Shown in pieces: positions 69 through 59,730 of a stretch of 64,000 nt of DNA. The notes beneath the pieces were generated by a model. That model worked only from the letters and a program-made list of their open reading frames with translations, was not told where the DNA came from and searched no databases. The position numbers and the translations under genes were made by a program. This DNA comes from Hoplostethus atlanticus (taxonomy: Eukaryota; Chordata; Actinopteri; Trachichthyiformes; Trachichthyidae), in contig JAXDDX010000013.1 of assembly GCA_034670405.1 (NCBI GenBank), positions 3,577,001 to 3,641,000 on the forward strand, given 5' to 3'. Every line of letters begins with the position of its first letter. Position 1 is the stretch's first letter.

Positions 69-632
69 TCTATCAGTCTATCTATCTGTCCATATGCTCA
101 TAAAGTGAATCCATAAAGTGGATTTAGTTCTGGCAGAGACCAGGCCAGATCAGTTTGGACAGATTTACTGCTGAACTGAACAGCCCAGCAGACTAACCTC
201 CATCAGCCTCTTAGCACACAAAGCCAATATCACATCTGGCAGTCAAACACACCGCCGTGGTGCAGGAACATCAACACAAACACAGGCTTGGTCCATACAC
301 ACAAATATACACGCACACACATGCTGATCGTTTTCACCCTAACTCACAGATACACTTCACAGACATCATACAGCCCCTCCGTCACACCACATACCAATAC
401 CCATAATGATACATAATGCTGGCGGCTCAGAATGGGGCTCCCATGCAATAAACAAAGATATGTATATGTAAACACAATTTAGTCTCCTGAGTTAAGGATC
501 AGTGAAACAACCCGCATCATGTAGTCAGGGCAAAATAGCCTCAGTCAGTCAGTCCATATGCTGAGATGAATGCAAAGAAAATGTATGCAGACACTGAAAC
601 GTGCTGCTTAATGTCACTTTTCTGCACTCAAG

Positions 633-749
633 TAAAGCGAAAATTTCAAGAGGTACTTGAAGAGATACTCGGAGAACCCCGCCCCCCCCGTCAGTTTGAG
701 ATACAAGCATCAGCAAGCGGCAGCGGTGGGGGATCAAATCCCACCATAG
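633..749 (+). CDS. Possible internal exon of an unidentified gene
   Basis: An open stretch bounded by an AG at 631-632 and a GT at 750-751 would give a 117-bp exon, phase 1 in and phase 1 out. It encodes a charged, probably helical segment (KRKFQEVLEEILGEP) followed by a Gly/Ser-rich tail. I do not recognise the protein. The acceptor lacks a strong polypyrimidine tract, the frame runs through a C homopolymer, and no partner exon was found. It may be chance, or part of a decayed gene or transposon. Confidence 0.2.
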
Positions 750-3592
750 GTACTCCAAGTTTACGTAATATGTGTAAATATTGTATGCACATAAAATAAA
801 TAACTCATTTAACATTTGCGTGCAATGTTTTAGGACAAGAGTCATAGAAATGTAGTGCTAAAAGGTCAACCGATAATATACTTCATGAGTATGGATTCAG
901 GGACTCAGCGGCTCAGCGGCTCAGCGGGACACAACTGATTTTGATTGCACTCATCTAAAAAATTACACCTTGTCCAACATAATTTAACCTCAACCATGAC
1001 TTGCTCATCAACCTAAATGGGCTTTCCGGTGTGAAACTCCTGCCACATAATTATCCAATCAGACGGGCAGAGTCCTGCAGCCTATAAAAAGTTTAGTTCC
1101 ATGCCTTACATCAACATGGCAGAAGATACAAAGAGAAGAGCAATTGTAGATTTAAATAGAAAAGACATATAGCAATTCAAATTATTCTTTTGGTTGATTA
1201 TGGCACCTCATTTTAGTCCGGTCCTGATGCATTTGAAACTTGTGAAACATGCCACTGACGATACCGTGTTCTAGTAAATGTACGTGTATGTAGTGATAAT
1301 GTCTTTGATTCCCCACAGACTCCCTGGACTGGTTAACACAGCAACACTAGAAATACAAACAATTAAACACAACCTTATTCAGTGACATTTCAAGTGTTTT
1401 ATAAATAGAATTAATAAATGCCATGCTGAGGGCAGCAAAAAGTACAATAAACAAACCACATTGTGTGTGTGCATATGTGTATGTGTGCGTAAATGTGTGG
1501 GAGACAGTGTCCACACTGTCAGTGGTCAGTCACAGGTCAGTGCATCCATATCTAGGCCAGGGCGGCGTGTGTGTGTGTGTGCATTGTGTCAAACTTAACC
1601 AAAGTGGAAGTCTGCTGAGATATTTCCAAAATATGATAAGTCTCACACGTGAACCTGGAAACAGCGGGGAGGGAGGGTACAACGGCTGTTGCTGCAACAC
1701 ACAGACCGGAGGTCTGGGGAGTGTGTCGGTCACACGTACAGTTAAGATCAGAAAAGATTTATTGAGCCCTGTGGGGAAACCGGGTCGCAGGAAAACAGTG
1801 ACATGATACAGCAAAGGAAAATAGAATATAAATACAAATATAGCAAATACTGGGTATTAAAGGGGCCCTATTGTCGAAATTATAAATGTTTCTATACATA
1901 TGGTCAAAGATGTTTAATGAAGAAGAAGTTTGATTTAGTTTCAGTGGTTAAATTTCAAGTTAAACAATCCATCCTTTGGAAAGCCTCCACTGGTGTCAGC
2001 CAATCAGGGTCCAGTATTGGGACGGTTCTACCGGGGAAGACTTACTCTTGAAAGTAATTCAACTTGTTGCAGGCACTTTTAAAGTTAATGTAACCAACAG
2101 TCTCAAGTTTCAAGAATGTTAAGTGGAAACCCATGAATGAAAAGTATGAAAACAAATAACACACCGGTTACAGCAGTGGTCCCAAAAGTGGGGTCCAGGG
2201 ACGACCCTGGGGTCCCTGAAGGCTGTCCGGTTACCCAGTTCTGTGCTAAATCATATCCAGCATCAGTTCTTTTAAATAAATAGTGGTCTGGGAATTTCTG
2301 GGTTACAGCAGCAAAATAACAGCAGAAGAACATACTAAGACAAAACATGGATGTAAATACGTTCGTTATGAGAATATACAAAAAATTAAATATATTCAGT
2401 ATTAAGTGAGAAATAATGCAAAATGTTAAGATATATGAAATATACACAAATGATAAAGAATATGGGAATGTGAGGAAAACAAATATACAGGATGTGCAAA
2501 ATGTATTCCACGTATCAAATATATTGAATATATTGAATTTCCACATATAGATAACATGATGTACATGAGGTGCAGCTTTGGGCATGTGTAGACAAGACAG
2601 TGCCCCAGCAAAAAGGCTACACTGTTCCCCAATCTCAACATATCATCCTTTTCCTCCGTCTCACTTTCTACTTCCTGACTGTCTCTCTTTGTGTTTACCT
2701 TCTGTCTCTCCCTCCACCTCCTCCTCCTCTCTCGCTCTCTCCCTTCTGCCTTCAGTCCTATCTGTCAGAAAGGGGATATTTCACAGCCCTGACTCATTGG
2801 GGGATTGTTGTTTTGTCTCTTCAGTTACTCCAATCAGACTGAAAGACTATGTTCTCAATTTTACTTGTAAAGGAATGCCCCTACTTTGTAGACAATGTTA
2901 AAGTGGTAATCTGTGTTTGAGTTTCTGTAGGTGGCGCTCTTTTCTTTGTCTGTTCATCCACGGTGGCAATCGCCGCTCATGCTAACTACCCAGTATGAAA
3001 TGCTTTCTGAGAGATTTGGAAGGAGTTTAAAGAAATATTCAACACTAAATCACGCGTTGCACATTTTACATTAACACATTTGAGTTCTATATGGCAAAAC
3101 CTAATAATACTGAACAGAAATTCAACATTGCCGATATAATTTCAAAAAAATGTATTTGTCTCGCCGGTCGCCAATCAGTGACGAAATGCCAAAGATTTAG
3201 GGATAGGATGAGAAATTAGATTAAAAAAAATGTTGACACCCCTAACTGCAGCTGGGTTTGAGGAAAGCAATCCTGAGTCTCGGCGTCACTCTGCATTGTG
3301 TAATCTTAGCTAGCTAGCGCGCTAATCGCCAATAAGTTGTCAAATGGACATCAGAGGTGTGATGAAATGTGTACTCGTTCATAGTGAAAGAATGAAAAAT
3401 ACTGCATTATCAGAAATCAAAACCGTTTGAGGATTTCCTTTGGTGTTATTGTTGGGCTGAGGTTCTATTTATGTCAACAGCCTATTCCTGGTCAAAGTCA
3501 ACTGAGATCAGTTTTAAATACGGCATTTAATCGCTCTGAGGCTCAAGGATTTTGGGATTGAATAATGGTCTGAGATAAGCTTTGTAAATACA

Positions 3593-3653
3593 CACACACA
3601 CACACACCCAAATGCATATATTTGAATACACACATTCCCATGCTTCATATATG

Positions 3654-6613: not shown

Positions 6614-7569
6614 ATGTGCTTCTCCGGGTGCGTCTCCACGGAGAGCGCCTGCAACTCCACGGGTAAAAACTGGACGGAAGGTTTCAATTTAACGGAAACG
6701 TGCACACTCGGGTACGCGCGAAAACGACAGCGACCCGTTTGGACGGAACGAGGAGGTCGCCAAGATCGAGATCACGGTTCTGAGTGTCACTTTTCTGGTG
6801 GCCGTGGTGGGGAACCTGAGCGTGCTTCTGGCCATGTACCAAACCCGCCGGAAGCCGTCCCGCATGCACCTGTTCATGAAGCACCTCAGCCTGGCGGACC
6901 TGGTGGTGGCCTTCTTCCAGGTGCTCCCCCAGCTCTGCTGGGAGATCACCTTCCGTTTCTACGGGCCGGACTTTCTGTGCCGCATAGTGAAGCACCTGCA
7001 GGTCCTGGGCATGTTCGCCTCCGCGTACATGATGGTGATGATGACTCTTGACCGGTACATCGCCATCTGCCACCCGCTGCAGACTCTCCACCAGCCCACG
7101 CAACGCGCTTACGTGATGATCGTGTCCACCTGGGTGTGCAGCCTGGTCCTCAGCACCCCGCAGTACTTCATCTTCTCCCTGAGCGAGGTGCACCCCGGCT
7201 CGGCGGTCTACGACTGCTGGGGGCACTTCATCCAGCCCTGGGGCGTGCGCGCTTACATCACCTGGATCACGGCGGGGATCTTCCTCGTGCCCGTGGCCGT
7301 CCTTGTGGTCTGCTACGGCTTCATCTGCCGTGCCATCTGGAGGAATCTCAAATGCAAAACCAAAAGGAAGGGTGTCGGCGCGGTGGCCGAGGCCACCAAA
7401 ACCGGGCTGCTGGGGAGGAATTCGGTCAGCAGCGTCAGCACCATATCCCGGGCCAAATTACGCACGGTGAAGATGACTTTCGTGATCGTCCTGGCGTACG
7501 TGTTGTGCTGGGCTCCGTTCTTCACCGTGCAGATGTGGTCAGTGTGGGATAAGACCTTCTCATGGGACG
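6614..7569 (+). CDS. avpr1a: Vasotocin V1a-type receptor, exon 1 (N-terminus to TM6), with apparent frameshift
   Basis: A class A GPCR of the vasopressin/oxytocin receptor family: a plasma-membrane receptor for arginine vasotocin that normally couples to Gq and calcium release. From about 6738 the frame reads NEEVAKIEI, then TM1 ([11 protein letters not shown]), TM2 ([17 protein letters not shown]), the TM3 DRY motif ([11 protein letters not shown]), the ECL2 Cys with FIQPWG, a basic ICL3, and TM6 with [19 protein letters not shown] and [10 protein letters not shown] fit V1a better than oxytocin or V2 receptors. The exon ends at WD + G before GTAAGT (7570), phase 1, the usual family intron position between TM6 and TM7. 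The only plausible ATG (6614) opens a glycosylation-rich N-terminus (NST, NWT, NLT) in another frame. The receptor frame has TAA at 6690-6692 and no ATG after it, so one extra base near GGG at 6710-6712 is implied. The aa/ab paralogue is undecided. Confidence 0.93.
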
Positions 7570-8770
7570 GTAAGTTACTCTGCTTTGGCTCTAACTCTGA
7601 AGTCGCCCATCCAGACAACTATTACGCACACCTGTATAAAGTATTACCAGGCTGCCACCATTTCACTAACATTTACACAATGTTATTTATTAAAAAAAAG
7701 TATCATTTAGGTCCATTTAGCAGTTCAATTATTTCATCCACTGCAAGCCGAGCGCATAGAACTACATACTGGTCAGTTTTGTCTGATACAGCGCAGTGCT
7801 GCTTTATTAGTTAAACACTGTTAATGATATGATAGCAAACCAAAATAATCACCACTGAAGTTCATGCAGAGGTGTTATGACTTTTAAATAGTGAATAATT
7901 TGCCAATGGTCATATCATATGACTATAATTTTATAAATTCCACTAAGCCATAATGAACTTGTGAGGGGTATTATGCAGGGATGATGAGAAAATGACACAA
8001 CTCAATTTTTTTGTGCTTCAAATGATTCTGATTATTCAGTGTAGGATTAGACCAAAATGTTATTAGGTTATTAATTAGTGTCTTCCACCTCTGATAAGAT
8101 GGAGGTTCCTCCCTCACCACAGCTTCACTAAACGGTCTGTAAAACCTGCAATGACATTTTGTTTTCTCCTCACATTTTATTTATTTATTTAAATATAATG
8201 TCAAATTCAATAATGTGTGAAATTACCTCTTGATTTAAAGGGGATGCATCCCAGTTTCCCCTACTATTGAATAGATGGGGTGGGCCAACCTGCCTTAATT
8301 TCATTAGTCTGGGTTTCAATGGAGAGATTTATTGTCCCATGATGATCTAACTGCTGTTTCAGAGGCTTTTTCACCGTAACAAGAAAACACTCTGGGGAAA
8401 CACTGACTGCTTGTCTTTTTTTGGCATGAAAATAGTCAAATTTAATCATGTTGAATATCGGTATAAGCTATCAATTGTTTCAATCCAAAAATATCAAAAA
8501 CCCATATCAGTCAAACCCTAATTCAGAGTGTGGGGCACAGGTTAGATCTCTGCATTTCATGAAACAGTCCAAGTTTGACAGTTTGCCTAGTGGTGAAAGA
8601 TTAGTTACAACAAACTGCAGGGCGAGAATTTGGCTGGTAGGTCAGTGACTCAGAGAACTAGGATGGCACAACTCCCTTGAGAGAATGTGTAAACACCTAA
8701 AATAAAATGTAGAAATCAGTGTGCCTCATAAATCTCCACTGTTTTTCCTCCCTTTTCTGTTTCCCTCCAG

Positions 8771-56231: not shown

Positions 56232-56362
56232 CAGCGCGCACAACTATCATTGCTCTCCTGCTCGCGAAACTTTCACCTGCTCGCTCGCGAGTGTTTTTTC
56301 TTTTTGGCAGTAAGTGGGCGGACCCAGTCACAATGGTATCCCTAAATCTAATTGGTTACAGT
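56232..56362 (+). repeat. 131-bp inverted repeat, left arm
   Basis: 'cagcgcgcacaactatcatt' through 'aatctaattggttacagt' is matched in reverse complement by 58778-58908, with identical length and apparently one mismatch. It contains 'cacctgctcgctcgcgag' and 'ggcagtaagtgggcggaccc'. No homology extends outward from the arms. Confidence 0.95.
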
Positions 56363-57074
56363 CCTCGTCTTCAGTCCTCTCGCAACCAGAGACAGCTCGC
56401 CTTCAAAGTAAAAGTTGCGCGTTTTGAAGGGTGTTGGTTGCAGCAGCGGTCAATTTAAGGAGAGCTAAACTAAATAAATAAACAAATAGCCTAAAGAATG
56501 AACATAATTCATAACTGTTATACAGTAATATTTCTGCCACTTTCCCATAACTGATTGTGAATAAATTGCCAAAGGGCGCGAACACTGGAATTATTATAGT
56601 GATTCATGTAGGGTGGAGTCAGCTAAAATGGGCCACTTTTTGGTAAATGATTTATAAGACCATCAAATAATAAGCTATGCAGGAGATCTGATATTTTTAT
56701 AAATTGGCATGGGTCTCTAAAATATTTATTTGTTAAAAAAATGTGAGTATAATTGTAAAAGTATAATTGTTTTGGATTTATGAGAGTTTGAGTATCAGCA
56801 GGTTCCCTCTTGAGCTACAACACAATGTTCAGGTAAAATGGGCCAGCTGTTCAGTTAAAATGGGCCAATATAAAGAGAGAACACAGTAATTTCAGCTGAA
56901 ATCATTTTAATTTTAACAGTAAATTGACACTAACTATTGTCTTTGGTGTACGATAGTAACAACACCATAAATACATTTCATGCAATAAAAAGTTGAACAA
57001 ATATTTAATTGAAAAATGCATTTAAAAATTAACTGATCATGTTGTATGGGTGTGTGTTTCTGCGCATTAGTGTC

Positions 57075-57108
<34 letters not shown>

Positions 57109-57196
57109 TTTCTGGGACTGTGTGTAGCTGTGTGTGTGTGTAGGTGCATGCTTGTGTCAACATTTGTCAAACATTATGTTAAAAAGTAGAACATCT

Positions 57197-57529
57197 TCAA
57201 ACACAGTCTTTGCAGATGTAACCATCATCATCATAGATGCCATTATCCTCTCCACAGCTCTCGTGGTACCATGAGTCGCACTGACAACAGCACACCCAGT
57301 CCTCCGTGGCCTTTGGGTCATTCACGTCACCATACACTCTCTGGCAGGCTGTGCAGGGGGGTTTGCCACTCTTGCTTTGTGCTGTTTTCTTATTTTGCTT
57401 TTTTCCCTTTGGTTGTTTTTTGTTAAGATTGTTAAGATTTCGCTTGGATACATCTAGACCAATGAACCTGTTTTGCGCCCTCAATTTCTGTGTAACTTCT
57501 GTGTAAGAGTGTGTGTGTATGTGGCCCAT
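57197..57529 (-). CDS. PHD-type (C4HC3) zinc-finger ORF inside a transposon
   Basis: The frame encodes 110 residues ending at a stop at 57197. After a basic, Asn/Lys-rich N-terminus (KKQPKGKKQNKK, possible nuclear signal) comes CTACQRVYGDVN, then DWVCCCQCDSWYHESC and YICKDC. The spacing Cys-x2-Cys … Cys-x2-Cys-x4-His-x2-Cys … Cys-x2-Cys is a complete PHD-like zinc finger. I associate such C-terminal fingers with pogo/Tigger-like DDE transposases; this is inference. The ATG lies within the motif/tandem-repeat junction and may not be the original start, so the ORF is probably the last part of a longer transposase whose catalytic region has been lost. Confidence 0.7.
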   Translation of the reverse strand: MGHIHTHSYTEVTQKLRAQNRFIGLDVSKRNLNNLNKKQPKGKKQNKKTAQSKSGKPPCTACQRVYGDVNDPKATEDWVCCCQCDSWYHESCGEDNGIYDDDGYICKDCV

Positions 57530-57915
57530 TTTAGCTGAAAATCGTGGCCCATTTTAGCTAGCTGGTTAAGCTAAAATGGGCCAATACCTAAAATTACTTG
57601 TTTACCAATGAACCTGTTTTGCACCCTCAATTTCTGTGTAACTTCTGTGTAAGAGTGTGTGTGTATGTGACCCATTTTAGCTGAAAATCGTGGCCCATTT
57701 TAGCTAGCTGGTTAAGCTAAAATGGGCCAATACCTAAAATTACTTGTTTACCAATGAACCTGTTTTGCGCCCTCAATTTCTGTGTAACTTCTGTGTAAGA
57801 GTGTGTGTGTATGTGGCCCATTTTAGCTGAAAATCGTGGCCCATTTTAGCTGAAAATCATGGCCCATTTTAGCTAGCTGGTTAAGCTAAAATGGGCCAAT
57901 ACCTAAAATTACTTT
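57459..57915. repeat. 146-bp tandem array in the transposon
   Basis: 'ccaatgaacctgttttgc' recurs at 57459, 57605 and 57751, exactly 146 bp apart. Each unit contains two 'gtggcccattttagct'-type motifs (one degraded in unit 2, three in unit 3), a GCTAGC centre, the inverted motif and 'acctaaaattactt'. The first unit overlaps the N-terminal codons of the zinc-finger ORF. Confidence 0.93.
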
Positions 57916-58777
57916 TTTCACAAAAATCACAAAGTTTTTTTAAATTTCAACTTTTTTATTTGAAAGAGCCTGTCAAAGCATTATTCATAAACATTTTGCT
58001 TTGTTGGTAAGCTTACTTATAAATGCTTTATCACCCTTATTAGTGATGAGTGAAATTTGCTATGTCATGCTCACTTACCATACAATTTCTCTTATGTACT
58101 TAATGTAACACTCTGCCCTGTCCACCTTAACAACCTCAGACTAATCAAAACTATTGTTACATGTCAACTAGTGTTGCAGCAACAATGCAAGATTAGTTAT
58201 TGTGATTGGCTGTAAAATTTTAAAGGGCTATGAAGCTCCAACCTTATCTGGCCCATTTTACATGATGGCCCATTTTAGCTGAGTCCACCCTATGTATGCA
58301 ATGATTCATGTATATATATTCATCAACGTATTTATTTGATTAAGGCTACTTAGGCCGAATCCCATTTCTCATTTTCACCCCTACCCCTCGTTTTCGAGTG
58401 CCCCTCGCCCTTCGGCTTGGCCCTCGGAACAGAGTCACAAGGGGTAGTGGTTGAAATCTCCCTCTATGAAATGGGACAACCCTTCAAGACCCTGATAAGT
58501 CATCGATGACGTTTACGTAAACAGACGCGACGAGTTTGTTATCGGACATTACACACATCACAGTGACATTTGCCATTCATCTGATGGAGATAGAGAAGCA
58601 TGGACGCTCGCGATTCGTTCACAACCTATACGTTTCACGCTATCAATCGATCAAACAAGTCATTAAATAAAAGAGTGGACATAACTCTTTTTTTTCTTCC
58701 ATCAACCACTTCATAGAACATAAAGCTTTATTGTTTCTCCTTCCTTGTTTACTTGCGCCGATACAAAAAGGCCAATC

Positions 58778-58908
58778 ACTGTAACCAATTAGATTTAGGG
58801 ATACAATTGTGACTGGGTCCGCCCACTTACTGCCAAAAAGAAAAAACACTCGCGAGCGAGCAGGTGAAAGTTTCGCGAGCAGGAGAGCAATGATAGTTGT
58901 GCGCGCTG
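58778..58908 (-). repeat. 131-bp inverted repeat, right arm
   Basis: Reverse complement of 56232-56362. CpG-rich sequence continues immediately to the right (58909-59095) and is not shared with the left arm's flank. Confidence 0.95.
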
Positions 58909-59095
58909 CTTCGGATTCTGCGCGCGCGCTCAAAGCATGGATTTCTCCTCTCAGGTTACAATATTGCTCGCGCGAGCAGATATATTCTGCGCGCGAGTGC
59001 TGTGAAAGCGCTCTCAAAAATAATATGTGTGCGCGGCTGTTTGAATTACGCGCGCGGTGATCTCAATTGCGCTCGCGGATTTTGTCACTCATATG
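58840..59095. repeat. Clustered CGCGAG / GCGCGC motif region
   Basis: Within about 250 bp there are many degenerate units such as 'cactcgcgagcgagcag', 'ttctgcgcgcgcgctc', 'ttgctcgcgcgagcag', 'ttctgcgcgcgagtgc', 'ttacgcgcgcggtg' and 'ttgcgctcgcggat', spaced roughly 20-35 bp. CpG density far exceeds the surroundings. No reading frame is convincing. Confidence 0.7.
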
Positions 59096-59730
59096 CCGCC
59101 ATAATGCTGCCCTAACTGGAATACTGTTTAGTACCTTCCAGGGTCACTTCAGTTTAATATGCTACCTGTTAGCCTGCTAGCTTGCTCACTGGGTCAATAT
59201 AATGAGATAGCAACAGGAGAGGGAAAAAAGTCAGTGGATCTAGCTTAGAAAAAGGATTCTGGAGAAACTTTTCTCTTAAGTCAATATATTGAGATCTAGT
59301 TTTGGAAATGCCAATTATTTTTATTTATTTCAGCTATATTTAAACAAGTTAGTCCTATTAAGATCAAGAATCTCTTTTTCACGGGATACCTAGTCAAGAA
59401 AGCAGCATCAAAACAAACATCAAGAAACGTTGCAGGCCAACAACATAAAGGATTGTATGAAGTCAGAATCCAGTCAAAGTCATGGAGAGCATGGTAAAAC
59501 AATGTATGAAATCGCATAAAAAAAGAGAGAACAAAGTAAAATCATCTGTAGAAACTAAATGTAACCTATCAAACTAAATGCATCATGATATTCTAAAACA
59601 ACAGAGAGAGCGGTTGACATTTTGGGTTGCTGTAAACCAGGAAAAATGTCTGTTATTTCTGTGTGGTGGCTGAGAATGTGATGCCATCTCCTTCCTCCTC
59701 TGCCTCATCCCCTTCTTGATGACCCTGTCT

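Follow-up and report, generated by a model that had tools for sequence, protein, structure and literature searches.

Transposons of the Sleeping Beauty type have IR/DR ends, with doubled binding sites near each end that are oriented like that end, and Spm/CACTA elements carry reiterated 12-bp sites in both orientations in their subterminal DNA. The target duplication of piggyBac is TTAA. Elements of the pogo superfamily duplicate a TA target and have, in most families, terminal inverted repeats (TIRs) of up to 40 bp (PMC7386202). A PHD finger beside the C-terminal domains of the transposase has been described for Ginger1-9_HM (PMC2836005), and IS3EU/GingerRoot elements are reported with TA..TA termini and 6-bp target duplications (PMC10045372).

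The element described here was identified in a window, that is, the whole 64-kb stretch of DNA that was analysed (C13:3577001-3641000), of a fish genome of 632.8 Mb in 1,161 contigs. It is a copy of a common and young fish DNA transposon, ordinary in kind and instructive in its anatomy. We consider it quite probable that this is a non-autonomous cut-and-paste element which arose, most likely, by internal deletion from a pogo-type element (IS630-Tc1-mariner group) with a transposase that ended in a PHD-type finger. With pogo elements (Tigger, Passer and relatives) it shares the TA duplication and a TIR, here of 25 bp; it differs from them in ends that start with GGGTGGA, in the lack of a DDE_1 or helix-turn-helix domain in the copies read, and in its reiterated sites, of which the copy L035 has as many as 18 exact ones. 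As in Sleeping Beauty, the sites near each end follow the orientation of that end, but they are more numerous and amplified in an array, and long inverted repeats are not present. The short two-orientation motif in subterminal DNA recalls Spm/CACTA, whereas the element has a TA duplication and no CACTA end.

Assignment to CACTA/EnSpm was rejected on the ends, which read GGGTGGA and are not of CACTA type. Ginger1, with its CCGG/CCGT target duplications and TGTNR ends, was likewise dismissed for an element with TA and GGGTGG, and piggyBac on flanks that contain TA only, e.g. GATTCATGTA/TATGTATGCA. Literature searches with the end sequence returned no 14-mer match, and the 12- or 13-mer matches, in four papers, concern, by title, other subjects.

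Ends, target site and genomic family

The element, 1,680 bp long, is complete between two TA dinucleotides, and the coordinates that the first-pass annotation had given for a complete TA-flanked transposon proved exact. Its limits, drawn from the sequence and from genome copies, are as follows:

56611..58290, minus strand (that of its PHD ORF), non-autonomous transposon
56609..56610, no strand, left TA target site (the unoccupied site has one TA)
58291..58292, no strand, right TA target site (the unoccupied site has one TA)
56611..56635, plus strand, left TIR, with G at the 8th base (left-end form)
58266..58290, minus strand, right TIR, with C at the 8th base from the end (right-end form)

The left border reads TA (56609-56610) followed by GGGTGGAGTCAGCTAAAATGGGCCA, and the right border TGGCCCATTTTAGCTGAGTCCACCC followed by TA (58291-58292). 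The two match at 26 of 27 bases including the TA, the one mismatched base of the 25-bp TIRs being G on the left and C on the right, and the terminal sequence takes the form GGGTGGA[G/C]TCAGCTAAAATGGGCCA. When the flanks of the window copy were joined through a single TA and searched for in the genome, 200 of 200 bases were identical at six other loci. All 40 scored sequences, out of 817 first-look candidates for this query (the joined interior of an outer repeat, see below), matched across the joint. The unoccupied target with its single TA thus shows that TA was duplicated on insertion, which bears out the duplication that had earlier been put forward for checking.

Searches of the host genome with the end pattern, allowing up to two mismatches, gave 112 + 108 matches as compared to 0 + 0 for the control pattern read backwards, and the window element is therefore one copy of a mobile family with these ends. 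Among the 100 listed of the 220 TIR places, 42 adjacent inward-facing end pairs were recognised; every one of the 42 paired a G-form with a C-form end (22 + 20), and 40 were 967-1,940 bp long. The finger sequence yielded 116 matches from 127 candidates, all of them scored, with the longest open frame among these matches at 156 aa. The right-hand 366 bp, used as a further query against the genome (40 scored of 125 candidates), added nothing.

Thirty-nine copies were fetched and, together with the window copy, formed a set of 40 in which 20 flank groups were distinguished, with 17 copies in the largest, five in another and 18 copies standing alone. According to the script used, TA was present on both sides in 32 of the 39 fetched copies, which are not all independent. 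As for the other seven, the script had misplaced L026, whose alignment extends from one TA to the other; in L022 a C is missing ahead of the TA, L031 has a truncated left side, and L028, L045, L046 and L047 have lost most of the left end. The last four bear a similar scar, with GGGTG kept, about 140 bp lost and a short filler; it possibly resulted from failed excision.

The mean divergence outside the array was only 1.5 percent (0.3-3.4) in the 18 independent copies, so that the spread of the family looks recent. In a tree of 37 of the 40 copies (L021, L035 and L031 omitted), neither of the shared-flank groups formed a single clade, which may reflect exchange between copies or noise. The smaller of the two groups (L014, L016, L025, L026 and L036) has the flanks ATAAAAGATA/TAATTATTAT and probably represents another repeat or a duplicated segment that carries the element.

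Nesting in an IS3EU-like repeat

The window copy shares its flanks with 16 other loci. This 17-member group owes its common flanks to a repeat with 326-bp inverted repeats in which the element sits, a nesting inside another transposon that the first-pass annotation had missed:

56232..59103, no strand, outer IS3EU-like repeat with the element inside; its left arm is cut short at 56232 and on the right it ends near 59103, ...CCGCCATA
58778..59103, no strand, right-hand inverted repeat (326 bp) belonging to the outer repeat; its left partner, 56232-56362, is truncated

The termini TATGGCGG...CCGCCATA were found in all eight copies that were read over wider flanks (L048-L055), and each of the eight outer repeats had a 6-bp target duplication, all eight of which were different as read by eye. 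Given eight distinct duplications around common termini, the outer repeat has moved with its passenger element, at least at those eight loci; for the other members of the group, common flanks alone were seen. The four copies with the left-end scar, which belong to this group, sit at separate loci, as expected of passengers. Both the TA..TA termini and the 6-bp target duplications resemble those of IS3EU/GingerRoot elements, and on these two features the outer repeat is judged to be IS3EU-like. The locus is a clear instance of a transposon that was amplified within a second one. It should be added that the outer repeat contains, at 58330-58490 of the window, the sequence CCGAATCCCATTTC...GAAATGGGAC with inverted halves.

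Reiterated motif and the 146-bp array

The 12-bp core TGGCCCATTTTA occurs in the element as 14 exact copies, in agreement with the about fourteen sites counted earlier, or 15 if a copy with one mismatch (57668) is included; no exact copy was found in the rest of the 64-kb window. In 200 order-1 resamples of the element, 12-mers with at least three different letters never exceeded two copies, and across 69 other tiles of 1,680 bp in the window the commonest 12-mer reached a maximum of nine copies, located in another repeat. The sites outside the TIRs, and the array with its own sites, are located as follows:

56834..56867, minus strand, two subterminal sites, 22 bp apart, oriented like the left end
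58249..58260, plus strand, subterminal site beside the right end
57458..57918, no strand, 146-bp array of three units (the last 169 bp) with sites R-R-F; the unit overlaps the 5' portion of the finger frame
57522..57898, no strand, ten array sites, nine exact and one with a mismatch at 57668

The earlier description of a motif repeated in both orientations and amplified in a 146-bp tandem array was therefore accurate, the array comprising two units of 146 bp and one of 169 bp. In total, three sites on the left are oriented like the left end, two on the right like the right end, and ten lie in the array. We infer that the reiterated motif is a probable transposase-binding site: a transposase supplied in trans would probably have bound TCAGNTAAAATGGGCCA-type sites at both ends, and would have cut at TA and duplicated TA on insertion.

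The number of array units ranged from one to seven among the copies, which means that the array grows and shrinks and behaves as a minisatellite. One may hence ask if the whole reiteration is a mere minisatellite that happened to include the end sequence, a reading compatible with the above explanation of the ends. That ten of the 15 sites are located in the array of variable unit number would suit it, as would the conservation of the core, which did not differ significantly from that of the remaining sequence. In the 18 independent copies (L021 and L035 of 20 were left out, as the anchor was not found in them), the five core sites outside the array showed 2 differences in 1,006 cells versus 104 in 14,602 elsewhere (Fisher p = 0.07), and the comparison by columns gave p = 0.22. 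We see in these values a marginal trend towards stronger conservation of the core sites and no proof of constraint, and selection on the motif sites was set aside. However, the five non-array sites stand in different contexts and are all oriented like the nearer end, and a DDE_1 relic of the same genome (L068, see below) has a reiterated subterminal motif of its own; we thus hold the purely minisatellite origin to be rather unlikely and retain the putative binding sites.

The array, whose conservation the first-pass annotation had proposed to test, is variable in unit number. The concept, in the same annotation, of a deletion derivative with multiplied binding sites agrees with a non-autonomous family and with the lack of a transposase in the copies read; the multiplication within the array, on the other hand, is that of a minisatellite. 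With one to seven array units and fixed left and right end forms, the family represents a natural series suited to testing the effect of extra sites on transposition. A hyperparasitic element, in which a chromatin-reading finger was combined with an expandable array whose length would tune the competition for, or titration of, the trans-supplied transposase, appears very doubtful.

The PHD-type finger and its probable link to pogo elements

The PHD zinc-finger ORF reported by the first-pass annotation corresponds to the following frame:

57197..57553, minus strand, stop-to-stop frame (118 aa) with a C4HC3 PHD-type finger at its end; the last codon is the stop, coding 57200-57553

The C4HC3 finger is present, with the spacing C-x2-C-x18-C-x2-C-x4-H-x2-C-x13-C-x2-C on the minus strand (counted on the pattern match), and it matched Pfam PHD with an E value of 5.7e-4 and 20.3 bits, which is below the curated cut-off of 24. 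As a correction to the earlier description, the 5' part of the frame falls inside an array unit. An NCBIfam scan gave a chance match only, and AlphaFold produced a poor model of the finger alone (mean pLDDT 57.8). No relative of the finger or of the ends was revealed in viral contigs or in a bacterial and archaeal genome collection, and a phage search found none either.

The finger protein might have been kept for its function, as a chromatin-reading or site-binding product that regulates transposition in trans. Among 98 near-full-length finger matches (at least 88 percent identity, table count), 96 were without an internal stop, and the finger diverged slightly less than the 3' noncoding part (1.21 versus 1.64 percent in 40 non-independent copies, the latter value becoming 2.01 percent when the TG-rich part is excluded), both of which would be in line with such a role. 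Open finger frames are, however, expected without selection because the copies are young. Moreover, in the 18 independent copies the finger diverged by 1.25 percent as compared to 0.71 percent in other non-simple sequence. The kept functional module proposed earlier was not borne out, since the finger has similar divergence at its three codon positions (0.90, 1.25 and 0.99 percent in the 40 non-independent copies), and we regard it as highly improbable; the frame is most likely a leftover.

Profile scans of ten of the 19 other ORFs of at least 35 aa in the element detected no transposase domain, and two weak matches under the cut-off (SapB_2, 0.011; VtrA_C, 0.088) both fell in one 54-aa ORF. 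The lack of a DDE domain, already noted in the first-pass annotation, was thus seen in the scanned ORFs of the window element and in the copies read; in the copies with one array unit (L061 and L063), too, no transposase of this element was seen. A longer, DDE-bearing relative with the same ends, which had been suggested as a check, was not found among the 100 listed of the 220 TIR places, the two longest TIR pairs of which (3,727 and 4,496 bp) contain no transposase of the element. None of the 15 DDE_1 matches in the genome (14 loci; 22 candidates scored) adjoins a finger match.

Two loci were considered as autonomous parents and rejected: L075 (C12) is devoid of the finger region and has a different 3-kb interior, and L076 (C24) has a finger copy together with reverse-transcriptase-like ORFs, as read from their translations. 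The interior of L075 (positions 558-3600 of this locus) is bounded by an inverted pair starting with TACACTGTAAATTC and is probably a further nested transposon.

Eleven of the 14 DDE_1 loci were read (L064-L074). A finger was located downstream of the DDE region in at least four of the eleven, one complete and three as remnants, and is taken as a link to pogo elements and not as a defining feature; four is a minimum, as the six remaining loci were checked by pattern only, and L071 has a different C-terminus. The complete C4HC3 finger, in L068 (C60:823800-828800), shares its frame with part of the DDE region, with stops between, and those of L069, L072 and L073 are incomplete (a C4HC part, or broken by frameshift) and follow a lysine-rich stretch. 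In a single comparison, the L068 finger matched that of the window with an E value of 1e-6 and 19 of 67 residues identical; Pfam gave it an E value of 0.7 only. Shuffles in which C and H were fixed reached the score of L068 in 0 of 500 cases, of L069 in 12 of 500 and of L072 in 4 of 500, a control to be read with the compared residues in mind, which are common to PHD fingers at large.

The inverted ends of L068 are G-rich, 25 nt long and 80 percent complementary (GGGGAGACC), and the locus is flanked by TA on the right and GA on the left. The motif GTTGTAAC occurs in it five times, towards both ends and in both orientations; simulations gave a mean of 0.07 and a maximum of 3 in 1,000 for this motif, which was picked after looking. 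By combining G-rich ends, a reiterated subterminal motif and a C-terminal finger, this DDE_1 relic has the same plan as the element, although its end and motif sequences are unlike those of the element. Clusters of the TGGCCCATTTTA motif were not found in the 11 DDE_1 loci, with one 1-mismatch site in L067. The broken pogo-type element occupies positions 1052-3999 of L068, and its DDE region is separated from the C-terminal finger by a 30-bp minisatellite.

The finger could also be captured cargo, because no transposase survives in the copies read: the element would then be MITE-like, would belong to a different lineage that targets TA (Tc1/mariner proper or some other member of the IS630 group), and would have acquired a host PHD exon. 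The weak resemblance of the finger to host PHD proteins (MTF2, E 0.073) points in the same direction. Yet in the DDE_1 relics a similar finger follows the DDE region and a lysine-rich linker; the frame in the window likewise contains such a linker, and its stop comes one residue past the final cysteine. In our opinion, this makes capture unlikely. The preferred origin is an internal deletion of a pogo-type element with a PHD-tailed transposase, by which the element would have arisen; the finger would then be what remains of the C-terminus of that transposase. The pogo/Tigger lineage proposed by the first-pass annotation gains support from the DDE_1 relics with a C-terminal finger, and we consider pogo membership of the element, as judged from sequence comparison, to be likely rather than proven, because its true full-length parent was not found in these searches. 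In a fish genome, pogo-type elements are linked by these data with a PHD-type finger at the C-terminus; such a link between pogo/Tigger elements and PHD fingers was not found described among the papers listed, as judged by titles and abstract openings, and may be in print.

Apart from the transposons, an ORF at 6693-7814 of the window looks, from its translation, like a seven-transmembrane receptor resembling the GnRH receptor.
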